Below, one piece after another: positions 8,633 through 33,352 of a DNA stretch of 64,000 nt. Origin of the DNA: Hydrocarboniclastica marina (GTDB lineage: Bacteria > Pseudomonadota > Gammaproteobacteria > Pseudomonadales > Oleiphilaceae); assembly GCF_004851605.1 (NCBI RefSeq), contig NZ_CP031093.1, positions 2,790,692 to 2,854,691 of the forward strand. Reading direction: 5' to 3'. The notes under the pieces are model-generated. The model had not been told where the DNA came from. It ran no database searches and saw only the letters and a program-made list of their open reading frames with translations. The stretch's first letter is position 1, and the number at the start of each line of letters is the position of its first letter. A program made the position numbers and the translations under genes.

Positions 8633-9154
8633 TTACTGAGACCGGACCCGAGGGTTGCATTGCTGGAGCGCCGCCACGAAACGCGACCCGTCTTCCGGCG
8701 AGATCGCAACAACGAGATCCCCAAATTGCAACACCAGCGCTTGGCCCGGATCAGTAACCCATGCTCGGAAGGGTCCCCTGGCCGGATGCTTGAACAATCC
8801 CATGAAACCGAAGAAGCCGGAATTGCCGAGAACGCTACGGGCCTGTTGCATCAGCATTGGGTCCGACTGGACCGATTGAAGGTGGGACAGGTCAAACCGG
8901 GTATTCCACAATAACCGCTCAATAACGAGTTCGCCTTTTTCTACCCGGTAACCACGCACAGCAAAGAGAGCTGCAGCGACGACAATAAAGACGGGTAACA
9001 GTCCGCCCCAGAAGTGCATACTGGCAGGGCCATGCGCCTGGATCACCGGCCAGAGAAATGCGGTCAGTGTCAGGCAGACCAGCGAAATGAGTACCGTGAC
9101 CAGGCGCAGCGTGCGGTCCCAGGGCGCGGCGAACAGATTTTCTGTCTTGGGCAT
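8633..9154 (-). CDS. Two-helix membrane protein with PH-like C-terminal domain, unknown function
   Basis: 173 residues. Two hydrophobic helices lie at about 16-35 and 47-65, followed by a soluble domain (VEKGELVIERLLWNTRFDLS onward). The pattern, a membrane hairpin then a beta-rich segment starting with Y/G-R-V-x-x-G-x-L-x-I-x-R, resembles bacterial PH-domain proteins. This is a fold-level guess from the pattern only. It lies 12 nt downstream of the next leftward gene and is probably cotranscribed with it. Confidence 0.65.
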   Translation of the reverse strand: MPKTENLFAAPWDRTLRLVTVLISLVCLTLTAFLWPVIQAHGPASMHFWGGLLPVFIVVAAALFAVRGYRVEKGELVIERLLWNTRFDLSHLQSVQSDPMLMQQARSVLGNSGFFGFMGLFKHPARGPFRAWVTDPGQALVLQFGDLVVAISPEDGSRFVAALQQCNPRVRSQ

Positions 9155-9166
9155 AGCGATGTACCT

Positions 9167-9556
9167 TTACTGAGACGCCGGGTCAACGGCCCCGGACCCT
9201 CTGACGACCTTCACAACCAGCGCGCCACTCGGCTCCAGCCGGATATAAAGCCGCTGCCCCGCTTCAAGTGACGGAACCGTTGCCTCAGGCATAGCCAGTG
9301 GCAACCCCGCTTTCAGGAGCAACTGAACAGATACCGGCGTGGCTTCCTCGGTGTTAAGAGAAATAAGCGCTGACTGGCCAGACACAACGCCAGGCCACTC
9401 CGTTTCACCGTCGCCTTTCTGTACGAGAATGTGTTCTATGGTTCGCCCTGACTGATTGTCCACCTCGATTAACATTGGCGCCGGGGACTGGCCCAGACCA
9501 TAAGCGATCAGTATCAGGATGAGACCAACAACCCCAGCGATAAAAACCGGTCGCAT
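9167..9556 (-). CDS. Membrane-anchored small periplasmic protein, unknown function
   Basis: 129 residues with one N-terminal hydrophobic segment (VFIAGVVGLILILIAYGLG), then a soluble domain predicted to be periplasmic. A short beta pattern, IEVDNQSGRTIEHILVQKGDG, is followed by further beta-like repeats. No family recognised. ATG 9556 is preferred to a TTG one codon upstream; no clear ribosome site is seen. It leads a two-gene unit with the PH-like membrane protein. Confidence 0.6.
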   Translation of the reverse strand: MRPVFIAGVVGLILILIAYGLGQSPAPMLIEVDNQSGRTIEHILVQKGDGETEWPGVVSGQSALISLNTEEATPVSVQLLLKAGLPLAMPEATVPSLEAGQRLYIRLEPSGALVVKVVRGSGAVDPASQ

Positions 9557-9688
9557 CAAGCGAGACTTCGCAGCTTCACCGATAATTCAGCCCTACCCCT
9601 ATTATGTTGTCGGATAAATTTACAGATCGGCAATGTAATAAAACAGCCCGCGAGCGCAACCCGATGTCGACTAACGAAAAACTAGGAA

Positions 9689-9704
9689 TGGCACCTATAT
9701 TGCT
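9689..9704 (+). promoter_or_regulatory. Sigma-54 (RpoN) promoter of the PEP-CTERM gene
   Basis: TGGCAC-N5-TTGCT matches the -24/-12 consensus in all conserved positions (GG at 9690-9691, GC at 9702-9703). The predicted start of transcription is about 12 nt downstream, leaving a leader of roughly 35-40 nt before the ATG at 9753. PEP-CTERM genes in other Gram-negative bacteria are controlled by PrsK/PrsR with RpoN, so the context fits. Confidence 0.75.
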
Positions 9705-9752
9705 ATCCATTAACCATCCGCAATATCACGTGTTTAATGGAGTAGTACACAA

Positions 9753-10490
9753 ATGTCTTTCATAAGAAAACTCATTCTAGCAGCCGCTGCAAGCGTAACC
9801 TCAAGCTTGGCCTTTGCTCTGCCTGTGACGCTCAACGCACTGGACGCTAACTGGACTGGCCACACAGGCGGTGCCAACGTTCAGTATCTTGACAGCGACT
9901 ACAACGGTTCGCAGGACAAGATAATCTGGGGCGACCATCGGGGCTGGAGCGGCTACCGTTTCAAGAACAGTAATCTGCCGGCGGTCGTTAACACCGGCGA
10001 AACCTTCGTTCTCGGCGAGTTTACGCACTGGAATAACGACATAACGTCTAACACCGCTATTTCCTCTGCAGAACTGACCCTGAGCACCGAGTTGGACATC
10101 CTGGGTACCAGCCTTACCGATGGCCCCTACAATTTCACCTTTGGCCATGACGAAACACTGAATGGTCACCACGGCCAGAAATGCGGCTGGTTCATTTTCT
10201 GGCACTGCAAAAACGTGTTCTACGAATATGATGTCGATGACATCGTGACGCTTGAAAATGTTGTTACCAGTCAGAGCTTCCAGATCGACAACTACATTTT
10301 TTCCATGGAAATACTGGGCTTTACCGGTTACCAGTCCCAGTTCTACACCCCGGAAAACAAGAAAACCTCCGCTAACATTCTGGCCCGCCTGAACGTGATT
10401 GAAATAGTCAGCGTTCCTGAGCCCGGTACCCTTGCCCTGTTTGGCCTCGCACTCGTGGGCCTGGGCGTCAGTCGCCGACTGCGTAGCTAA
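9753..10490 (+). CDS. THxN-family PEP-CTERM sorting-domain protein
   Basis: A 245-residue exported protein. The N-terminus is a signal peptide (KLILAAAASVTSSLAFA, cut near 23). The C-terminus has the tripartite sorting signal: VPEPG, a hydrophobic helix, and a basic end (SRRLRS). The segment GEFTHWNNDI near residue 90 is the THxN signature of one PEP-CTERM family. Such proteins are processed by exosortase and are tied to exopolysaccharide and biofilm matrix. Exosortase itself is not in this window. GGAG lies about 10 nt before the ATG, behind a sigma-54 promoter, with a strong terminator after the stop. It is monocistronic. Confidence 0.9.
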   Translation: MSFIRKLILAAAASVTSSLAFALPVTLNALDANWTGHTGGANVQYLDSDYNGSQDKIIWGDHRGWSGYRFKNSNLPAVVNTGETFVLGEFTHWNNDITSNTAISSAELTLSTELDILGTSLTDGPYNFTFGHDETLNGHHGQKCGWFIFWHCKNVFYEYDVDDIVTLENVVTSQSFQIDNYIFSMEILGFTGYQSQFYTPENKKTSANILARLNVIEIVSVPEPGTLALFGLALVGLGVSRRLRS

Positions 10491-10498
10491 GTCCTGAG

Positions 10499-10527
10499 CC
10501 CGGGGCGCGACACTGCGCCCCGGGTTT
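10499..10527 (+). terminator. Rho-independent terminator after the PEP-CTERM gene
   Basis: A perfect 10-bp stem (CCCGGGGCGC and GCGCCCCGGG) with a six-base loop is followed by TTT, 8 nt after the PEP-CTERM stop codon. The stem is very GC-rich but the T-run is short. Confidence 0.75.
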
Positions 10528-10617
10528 CCTCGCACAACCCTCTGCCTTGCTGTCTCATTGCTTCTCTCCTAGCGTAAGATGCGGGATTTACCACTCCGCA
10601 TGCTTAAGCAGATTCAG

Positions 10618-11775
10618 ATGCCTGCCTACACTATAAAGATTCTTGATACCCTGAGCCCCGTTTACCCTGCCACCTGGAACACTATCAGCGGCACGCACAA
10701 TCCGTTCACCCGTTTCGAGTTTCTGCATGCGCTGGAAACCGAAGGCTGCACGACGTCAGCCCAGGGATGGCAACCTCATCACCTGGCTTTCACCGACGCG
10801 GCCGGATCAACCGTTGCCCTCTTACCCGCCTATATAAAGACGCACTCCATGGGTGAGTACGTGTTCGACTGGGGCTGGGCAGATGCCTATCAACGCCACG
10901 GTCTGGCCTATTATCCCAAGCTGCTCAGTGCTGTGCCCTTTACCCCATCCATCGGCCCGCGACTACTCTATCCCCCGGGCTCGGACCCGGCGACCGTGAT
11001 GCAACTTCACCACGACGCCGCGCAGGCACTGACCTCTGAAGCGATCAATATGCAGGCCTCGTCCTGGCACCTGTTGTTTGCAAACGAGGACAGCGTCTCT
11101 CTTCTCGGCGGAGAAGAGAACGTGATGGTGCGCTCGGGCTGCCAGTTCCGTTGGAAAAACAACGGCTACAGCATCTTTGAAGATTTCACCGACGCGCTGG
11201 TGTCGCGCAAGCGCAAGATGATACGCAAGGAAAGAAAAGCGATCGCCGACCAGGGCATCAGTTTCCGCCACTTGCCGGGCACCGACATTACCCAGGCTGA
11301 TCTCGACACTTTCTTCGTGTTTTACCAGGCCACGTATCTGAAACGAGGCCAGGCGCCCTACCTTACCCGGGGCTTTTTCCAGAGAATCTGTGAAACCATG
11401 CCCGAACAGTTGCATCTGGTCATCGCGGAACACAATGGCAACGATGTCGCCGCCGCACTTTTCTTTGTCAACGAGGACACCCTGTTTGGCCGCTACTGGG
11501 GTTGCCTGGAAGAATACGACCGGCTCCACTTCGAGACCTGCTACTACCAGGGCATTGAGCTGTGCATTAGCCGCAACCTGAGGGACTTTGACGCGGGCGC
11601 CCAAGGCGAGCATAAAATTCTCCGCGGCTTCGAACCGATCATTACCCGCTCCTGCCACTGGATCGCCCACCCTTCGTTCCGCGCTGCCATTGCCGGGTTT
11701 CTTGAGTCTGAGACTCAGAACGTCGTGGCTTACGCCGATGAAGCCCGGTCCCTCCTGCCCTATCGCGACTACTGA
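10618..11775 (+). CDS. FemAB/GNAT-fold N-acyltransferase (DUF482, PF04339-like)
   Basis: About 385 residues of the family annotated 'peptidogalycan biosynthesis protein', a double GNAT fold related to FemAB aminoacyl transferases. Family-like segments are NPFTRFEFLHALE near the N-terminus, the central RKRKMIRKERKAI, and FGRYWGCLEEYDRLHFETCYYQGIE toward the end. Substrate is unknown for the family. Starts at 10579 and 10600 are in frame; 10618 matches where relatives usually begin, but none has a convincing ribosome site. It lies alone between a terminator and the convergent yigZ-like gene. Confidence 0.8.
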   Translation: MPAYTIKILDTLSPVYPATWNTISGTHNPFTRFEFLHALETEGCTTSAQGWQPHHLAFTDAAGSTVALLPAYIKTHSMGEYVFDWGWADAYQRHGLAYYPKLLSAVPFTPSIGPRLLYPPGSDPATVMQLHHDAAQALTSEAINMQASSWHLLFANEDSVSLLGGEENVMVRSGCQFRWKNNGYSIFEDFTDALVSRKRKMIRKERKAIADQGISFRHLPGTDITQADLDTFFVFYQATYLKRGQAPYLTRGFFQRICETMPEQLHLVIAEHNGNDVAAALFFVNEDTLFGRYWGCLEEYDRLHFETCYYQGIELCISRNLRDFDAGAQGEHKILRGFEPIITRSCHWIAHPSFRAAIAGFLESETQNVVAYADEARSLLPYRDY

Positions 11776-32418: not shown

Positions 32419-32434
32419 TGGCACAGGTTTCGCT
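32419..32434 (+). promoter_or_regulatory. Sigma-54-like promoter of the urease operon
   Basis: TGGCAC-N5-TCGCT. All -24 bases match and the -12 GC is in register; only TT->TC differs from the consensus. Predicted transcription starts near 32445, giving a leader of about 45 nt before ureD. Confidence 0.55.
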
Positions 32435-32491: not shown

Positions 32492-33352
32492 ATGAGCGCG
32501 CTTGAGAAACAACCAGATCATCGCCACTGGCCGGCAAGCCTGCACCTTGAGCTGGCGCTGCGATCAGGCTGCACCCGGCTGGTGCGTAACCGCCACCTGG
32601 GGCCGCTGCGTATACAGCGCCCATTTCATCCTGAGGCCAGCGACTGCGCCCATCTCTATGTCTTGCACCCGCCAGGGGGACTGGTATCCGGCGATGACCT
32701 GCGCCTGACCGTGGACGCCGGTGTCTCCACCCGAAGCCTGATCACCACACCCTCGGCCGGGAAGATATACCACGTGGCCAGCACCGGTGAGCGGCAGCGA
32801 CAGACCACTCACATTACCCTGGCCAAGGGGAGCCAGCTTGAATGGCTGCCCCAGGACAATATCGTGTTTGATGGCGCGCTGGGCGAACTGGGGCTGCGGG
32901 TCGATCTCGCTTCAGATAGCCGCTTTTTCGGTTGGGAGATAACCTGCCTTGGGCGCGCGGCCGGTGACAAACCCTTCCGAAAAGGCGCGCTCCTGCAGCG
33001 GCTGGAACTTTATCGCAATGGTAAGCCCTGGCTGCTGGAGCGGACGCCGTTGCGCGCAACGGCCGATATTCTCAACAGCCCCTGGGGCCTTCGCGGCCAG
33101 ACTGTATTCGCGACAGCCATAGCGACCTTGACACATTTGGGCCCCGACCAGCAGAAGCATGCCCTGGAACTCGCCCGCGAGCAGCTGGGGCAGACCTGTG
33201 CCGGTGTGACACTAACCCGGGAACTGTTGATCGCCAGACTACTGGGCGACGACAGCGAAACCGTTCGTAACCAGTTGATCCGATTTTGGTGGGCGCTTCG
33301 TCCCCTGGTTTTTGATCGGCCCGCTTGCGCACCGCGCATATGGGCGACCTGA
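32492..33352 (+). CDS. ureD: Urease accessory protein UreD
   Basis: 286 residues. HLGPLRIQRPFHPE, HLYVLHPPGGLVSGDDL and TTPSAGKIYH are UreD motifs; WLPQDNIVFDGA follows. It acts with UreF and UreG in carbamylating and nickel-loading the urease active site. It is the first gene of ureDABCEFG-hupE. The ATG at 32492 has no strong ribosome site. The C-terminal WWALRPLVFDRPACAPRIWAT is normal. Confidence 0.92.
   Translation: MSALEKQPDHRHWPASLHLELALRSGCTRLVRNRHLGPLRIQRPFHPEASDCAHLYVLHPPGGLVSGDDLRLTVDAGVSTRSLITTPSAGKIYHVASTGERQRQTTHITLAKGSQLEWLPQDNIVFDGALGELGLRVDLASDSRFFGWEITCLGRAAGDKPFRKGALLQRLELYRNGKPWLLERTPLRATADILNSPWGLRGQTVFATAIATLTHLGPDQQKHALELAREQLGQTCAGVTLTRELLIARLLGDDSETVRNQLIRFWWALRPLVFDRPACAPRIWAT

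Follow-up and report, generated by a model that had tools for sequence, protein, structure and literature searches.

We find that the THxN family PEP-CTERM gene of the window (the whole 64-kb stretch of DNA that was analysed) has the two-box promoter pattern of the PrsK-PrsR-RpoN regulon and encodes a predicted exosortase-sorted protein whose mature part shares homology with the RTX-adhesin peptide-binding domain. Taken jointly, regulon membership, sorting class and domain homology are very likely, and membership in the PrsK-PrsR-RpoN regulon by itself is likelier still. This rests on observed sequence elements and gene content, on conservation and box spacing, and on homology in both fold and sequence (positions in Table 1). 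The original prediction, which had read a sigma-54 promoter in front of a lone biofilm-matrix protein, is corrected in three points: the key promoter element is a second box further upstream, the gene is part of a dispersed set, and a binding or adhesin-like role of the product is the likeliest.

We infer PrsR occupancy, sigma-54 dependence and exosortase processing at the window gene and propose the following sequence of events. PrsK would phosphorylate PrsR, which would bind the 17-nt box at 9608-9624 and contact, through its AAA+ domain, sigma-54 polymerase at 9689-9704; the 64-nt spacer would hold PrsR on the right helix face, and transcription would begin near 9715. The product would be exported via its signal sequence, its PEP-CTERM tail would be processed by the only exosortase detected in the genome, near exopolysaccharide genes, and the mature domain would serve at the surface or in the matrix as a binding protein, recognising other proteins or cells. 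Such a role is the most likely one because the mature domain is homologous to the RTX-adhesin peptide-binding domain.

Table 1. Positions in the window of the promoter elements, the gene, its protein domains and the downstream hairpin.
Feature	Position	Strand	Basis
Upstream 17-nt box TGTCGGATAAATTTACA (Haft 2006 motif 1), an imperfect dyad with YGT...ACR arms; predicted PrsR site	9608-9624	+	alignment, scoring
Sigma-54 -24/-12 promoter TGGCACCTATATTGCT	9689-9704	+	sequence read, consensus and pair scoring
Predicted transcription start	9715	+	inferred by distance from -24 GG
GGAG, likely ribosome-binding site	9739-9742	+	by eye
THxN family PEP-CTERM protein, 245 aa	9753-10490	+	NF038125 profile
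Choice-of-anchor K domain, RTX-adhesin peptide-binding-domain fold, residues 20-217	9810-10403	+	profile, fold
Residues 221-244, PEP-CTERM sorting tail with PEP motif, hydrophobic helix and basic end	10413-10484	+	profiles, model
G+C-rich hairpin directly 3' of the stop, terminator-like by fold	10496-10527	+	-29.3 kcal/mol, z -4.1

A predicted sorted protein with a homologue of the RTX-adhesin peptide-binding domain

The protein matches the THxN PEP-CTERM model NF038125 over nearly its full length (residues 8-242; 152.3 bits, cut-off 85). Five proteins of the genome pass this cut-off (the window protein, L012, L015, L016 and L017), of which the window protein diverges most from the model (152 bits, against 262-289 for the four others); L017 at 2.29 Mb and L012 at 2.32 Mb lie near the exosortase region. 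The full PEP-CTERM sorting tail is borne out by TIGR02595 and PF07589, both of which the C-terminus passes. With a signal sequence (by eye), this tail and an exosortase in the genome, the protein has the make-up of an exosortase substrate.

The mature part passes the choice-of-anchor K model NF038131 (residues 44-210; 73.7 bits, cut-off 30). An AlphaFold2 model built from 26 aligned homologues (pLDDT 81.8, pTM 0.71) places a beta-sandwich at residues 24-217 and a C-terminal helix at 224-244. Residues 20-217 of this model match the MpAFP domain 5k8g with Z 21.9, 176 residues aligning at rmsd 1.9 and 28% identity; the FrhA domain gives Z 21.4, and among the best 50 structure matches the best chain of any other protein reaches Z 4.7. 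A polysaccharide-binding fold was considered and rejected: the unrelated chains among these 50, several carbohydrate enzymes included, have Z ≤4.7. The match to the adhesin domain is also found by sequence alone (E 2.4e-6) and by profile (E 3.2e-27), at an identity of 25-29% to the RTX-adhesin domains, and the MpAFP domain itself passes the choice-of-anchor K cut-off (81.2 bits). Across 26 family members, 24 columns show conservation of 85% or more, and at 17 of these the MpAFP domain has the same residue; these shared columns include the THxN and HxETxN residues, and the conserved polar residues in common are S66, H92, N94, H132, E134, T135, N137, D163, T199 and E201. Fold, profile homology and most of the conserved residues are thus held in common with MpAFP/MpIBP (5k8g, 6x5v, 6x5w, 6x6q) and FrhA (9y9w, 9ybq).

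RTX adhesins are giant repeat proteins, very long, with extender and RTX repeats and type 1 secretion, whereas the window protein has 245 aa and a single domain on a PEP-CTERM tail and is not itself an RTX adhesin. Since it matches the RTX-adhesin peptide-binding domain in both fold and sequence, it looks like a small exosortase-sorted adhesin, as judged from sequence and a structure model. The RTX-adhesin domain is reported to bind C-terminal tripeptides, with -Tyr-Thr-Asp as the optimum (PMC12077191). By analogy the window protein may bind C-terminal peptides too, at a little under an even chance, a shared fold not proving a shared ligand.

The gene might be regulated as proposed and its domain still play a passive part in the matrix, structural or polysaccharide-associated, without binding any peptide, a reading we hold to be nearly an even bet. 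PEP-CTERM proteins have been tied to exopolysaccharide loci and to floc formation (PMC1569441, PMC9850573), and the identity to the adhesin domain, at 25-29%, is low. Against it stand the 17 of 24 conserved columns shared with the MpAFP domain, the polar set included, which is the pattern expected of a shared site. The original term 'biofilm-matrix protein' is backed only in part: the RpoN-dependent PEP-CTERM protein of Aquincola is reported to serve floc formation, but neither biofilm formation nor swarming was restored by it (PMC9850573), and the fold found here is that of a binding domain.

In the literature searched we found no link of PEP-CTERM proteins to an RTX adhesin or to a peptide-binding domain. 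The homology of THxN proteins and the adhesin domain is already implicit, since NCBIfam groups both under one model; the functional link from PEP-CTERM proteins to the adhesin peptide-binding domain is the part that we did not see stated in that literature. The roles of individual PEP-CTERM proteins are largely unknown, and the adhesin homology turns 'biofilm-matrix protein' into a binding assay.

Transcription unit

A FemAB-like gene (10579-11775) follows on the same strand, 88 nt from the stop to its first listed start, and the two genes could be co-transcribed and act together. We consider this improbable, as a strong hairpin stands directly behind the stop and the neighbour is not of the XrtA-associated FemAB type (28 bits, cut-off 260). 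The terminator scan did not list this hairpin, whose T run is short and whose terminator-like character is read from its fold. A single-gene unit is the better reading. Upstream, a start of the divergent ORF at 9559 would leave an intergenic gap of 193 nt; in the set of Haft et al., more than 65% of the genes are reported as single-gene operons with more than 200 nt of non-coding DNA upstream (PMC1569441).

The predicted promoter is a pair of boxes

The sigma-54 element TGGCAC-N5-TTGCT, claimed from the start to lie 48 nt before the ATG, is confirmed: TGGCAC occupies 9689-9694 and TTGCT 9700-9704, and the ATG follows at 9753. By a simple consensus score made for this analysis it is the top sigma-54 site of the window (0.97), followed by six further sites at 0.90-0.93. 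One of these six, TGGCACAGGTTTCGCT at 32419, lies 58 nt 5' of a UreD gene (32492-33352), in line with the urease-linked match of the original prediction. Taken alone, the sigma-54 box is weak evidence, near chance level: TGGCAC-N5-TTGC has 17 matches in the 4.26-Mb genome as against 10 for the reversed pattern, and eight window positions (four per strand) outscore the box by a weight matrix from the other regulon members.

The decisive promoter element is the upstream 17-nt box, absent from the original prediction. Lining up the upstream regions of the PEP-CTERM genes revealed a YGTCRN6TTTACA-like box 5' of the sigma-54 site. In the window gene this box ends in TTTACA, as does motif 1 of Haft 2006, and ranks first by the 17-nt motif score of all window positions on both strands; the gap to the sigma-54 box, 64 nt, falls within the spacer range of Haft et al. 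(32-92). The box pair is far above chance. Scored leave-one-out, the pair of the window gene reaches 34.7, against 16.9 for the next best in 64 kb on both strands, and when the promoter region was dinucleotide-shuffled 2000 times, the highest score was 17.3, against 32.2 for the real one. Self-complementarity of the 17-nt box spans 6-12 of 17 positions and is consistent in the YGT/ACR arms only (palindrome test).

A clear pair precedes 14 of the 16 PEP-CTERM genes over cut-off in the genome (leave-one-out scores 23.0-39.3). These 14 sites were first chosen by eye, and each was then scored against a model from the other 13. The remaining two genes have a weak pair (L018, 16.1) and none (L024). 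At L012 and L016, one other pair per 3-kb locus scores slightly above the gene's own. For L012 this is an extra upstream copy of the 17-nt box (L078 ~3462, minus strand), 5' of its THxN gene; Haft et al. likewise reported extra box copies for other genes (PMC1569441). For L016 it is a second, divergent pair pointing away from the PEP-CTERM gene (L087:1501-1585, G000:C1:3212715-3212799), and the next listed ORFs on its strand are not PEP-CTERM proteins.

Promoters of exactly this kind were described by Haft et al. 2006, who found that 99 of 167 proteobacterial PEP-CTERM genes are preceded by a sigma-54 motif and a 17-nt motif with TTTACA at its end, with a spacer of 62.8 (SD 10.6; range 32-92), and who named PrsK, PrsR and PrsT from a phylogenetic profile matching the motif (PMC1569441). 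The regulation predicted for the window gene thus adds a further case to a kind already known, with motif 1, the spacer range and the PrsK/PrsR/PrsT genes all matched. In Aquincola tertiaricarbonis, the start of pepA has been mapped to a -24/-12 promoter and is rpoN1-dependent (PMC9850573). Like the window gene with its predicted promoter and terminator-like hairpin, pepA is a PEP-CTERM gene with a -24/-12 promoter (TGGCAC/CTGCTT), a stem-loop terminator and a predicted enhancer upstream (PMC9850573); PepA is a different protein, the window protein scoring 37.8 on the PepA model (cut-off 80).

Regulators, sorting genes and conservation

The PEP-CTERM model matches 18 places in the genome, 16 of them over cut-off; L025 and L026 fall below it and are excluded from our counts. 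The window gene is the sole match inside the window, so the epithet 'lone' holds for the window and fails for the genome, with its 16 PEP-CTERM genes and five THxN proteins. The original prediction had the gene encoded away from its sorting machinery with no exosortase nearby, and this stands: no exosortase was found within the 64-kb window, and the single one of the genome (C1:2279342-2280094) lies in the exosortase/Prs region ~520 kb away. It passes the general model TIGR02602 (134.3 bits, cut-off 105.55) and stays below the XrtA model TIGR03109 (187.9, cut-off 208), so that it is not assigned to the XrtA subtype; its neighbours pass the XrtA-system models TIGR03007, TIGR03013, TIGR03027 and TIGR02917.

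One protein passes the PrsR cut-off (2272885-2274219; 685 bits, cut-off 502.6) and one the PrsK cut-off (2270295-2272310; 676 bits, cut-off 300); PrsT (439.5 bits, cut-off 312) adjoins the PrsK, PrsR and exosortase genes, and there is one RpoN. PrsK, PrsR, PrsT, the exosortase and the XrtA-type exopolysaccharide genes all lie within ~50 kb. The original prediction would have been refuted by a genome that lacked an exosortase or PrsR; both are present, as are PrsK and RpoN, which it also named, and PrsT. Together with the predicted activator box at the promoter, this supports regulation of the PrsK/PrsR/RpoN type, in which PrsR would exert the control.

Both boxes are retained in most relatives. 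Genomes of the same family gave 24 loci with a homologue of the window protein, of which 17 have a clear pair (score ≥20; L047 and L059 are examples), five a weaker one (14.7-18.4) and two none. Across 101 family genomes the strict pair occurs 366 times as against 38 for the reversed pattern, and it is present in 99 of them. In the -12 element of many relatives, L052-L059, L061 and L063 among them, AGC or GGC stands in place of TGC, with GG/GC kept. The protein of L146 (Vreelandella utahensis) ends in the same 32 residues as homologue L046. A search for close relatives by peptide patterns in named genomes gave 40 stretches that matched a pattern, none of which was confirmed; the homologues in named genomes were reached through the promoter pattern.

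PrsR is over cut-off in 95 of the 101 family genomes. Four of the six others are only 70-88% complete, and two (G124 and G138) are 99% complete; these two lack the exosortase as well, which was found in both control genomes. One in-phase pair still stands before a PEP-CTERM gene in each (L118, L125). We read these pairs as relics because the exosortase has been lost too, possibly a snapshot of regulon decay, or else the box there is read by another activator.

It might likewise be that the pair at the window gene is real but read by another sigma-54 activator, with PrsR merely correlated; this we judge quite improbable. The genome encodes seven further NtrC-like proteins (290-375 bits on the PrsR model), G124 and G138 keep one pair each without PrsR, and the pair also precedes genes that are not PEP-CTERM genes, which we count against PrsR control. 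One protein alone, however, passes the PrsR cut-off, PrsR is present in 95 of 101 family genomes, the pairs of G124 and G138 fit relics, and the phylogenetic profile of the motif in Haft et al. is reported to match PrsR, PrsK and PrsT (PMC1569441). A chance sigma-54 match in front of an ordinary sigma-70 promoter, an alternative already named in the original prediction and one to which the near-chance counts of the sigma-54 box lend some colour, is very improbable given an upstream box ranked first in the window, a pair at 14 of 16 PEP-CTERM genes and 17 of 24 homologue loci, and no sigma-70-like site in 9150-10700 by a simple scan (a weak test, as 0.7 are expected in shuffles).

Box spacing is helically phased

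In the genome of the window, the gap from the TTTACA end to the TGG measures 44, 52 (3 genes), 53, 61, 62 (3), 64 (5) and 74 nt in 15 genes, the weak L018 pair included. These gaps are phased at 10.5 bp with R = 0.81, a value that simulations with uniformly or normally distributed gaps reach about once in 10,000 runs. Among the 142 sites listed for the other genomes of the family, the gaps have their maxima at 42-45, 50-55 and 61-66, and R is 0.57 at 10.5 bp (99.9% point of the uniform null, 0.28); sites from related genomes are not independent. As the family R climbs slightly further up to 11.5 bp and the peaks are unevenly spaced, the data leave the exact period unfixed.

Named Proteobacteria genomes yielded at least 120 pair matches from 119 stretches. 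A crude pattern marked 63 of those listed as PEP-CTERM, L243 apparently in error, while several matches marked 'none' also have PEP-CTERM-like tails. The gaps of the 63 are 49-54 in 19, 60-65 in 42, 42-45 in 2 and 56-59 in 0, with R 0.78 at 10.5 bp. Sixty-two of the 63 fall inside phase windows that were set after the histograms were seen (55% expected if uniform), and the Rayleigh figures are independent of these windows. The gap-42/43 sites of the named-genome set belong largely to two recurrent non-PEP-CTERM groups, so the main support for the ~44 peak comes from the family set (9 of the 142 sites listed) and L009. Measured to the start codon, neither box shows phasing (R 0.05-0.17); the constraint therefore acts between the two boxes.

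Box spacing is thus helically phased across Proteobacteria, at ~44, 52 or 64 nt and rarely at 46-49 or 56-59. Where Haft et al. gave one mean spacer of 62.8 (SD 10.6), the distribution here is multi-peaked; a search of their text (PMC1569441) and of the titles and abstracts of the papers listed found no mention of helical phasing of the pair. The phasing offers a simple criterion by which true PrsR promoters can be found, and it allows the contact between PrsR and sigma-54 polymerase to be tested directly.

We offer one wider proposal, in our estimate rather unlikely. THxN PEP-CTERM proteins may be compact exosortase-sorted peptide-binding adhesins, in which a sorting tail carries the re-used ligand domain of megadalton RTX adhesins. 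They would be produced along with exopolysaccharide and recognise free protein C-termini on neighbour cells or in the matrix, possibly including the new C-termini that arise from exosortase processing of other PEP-CTERM proteins, and their common switch would be a PrsR enhancer on one helical face across Proteobacteria. If true, an enhancer on a single helical face implies a tight, phase-locked contact of PrsR and polymerase.

Box pairs before other genes

Pairs also precede genes of other kinds. In Acetobacteraceae and Asaia MAGs (L140, L179, L215) a gap-42 pair lies upstream of a gene for a protein of 134-147 aa whose N-terminus resembles a signal sequence; the one in L140 gave no Pfam match. 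In nine Sphingomonadales loci (L129, L136, L178, L182, L188, L201, L217, L225, L226) a strict pair with a gap of 43-44 precedes a protein of ~80-100 aa with the core KIGRLFVIKTRFEA..., which is not a PEP-CTERM protein (the L129 frame runs off the end). In several cases the pair directly follows a gene that resembles astB. The small Sphingomonadales protein is a candidate for a conserved non-PEP-CTERM target of PrsR.
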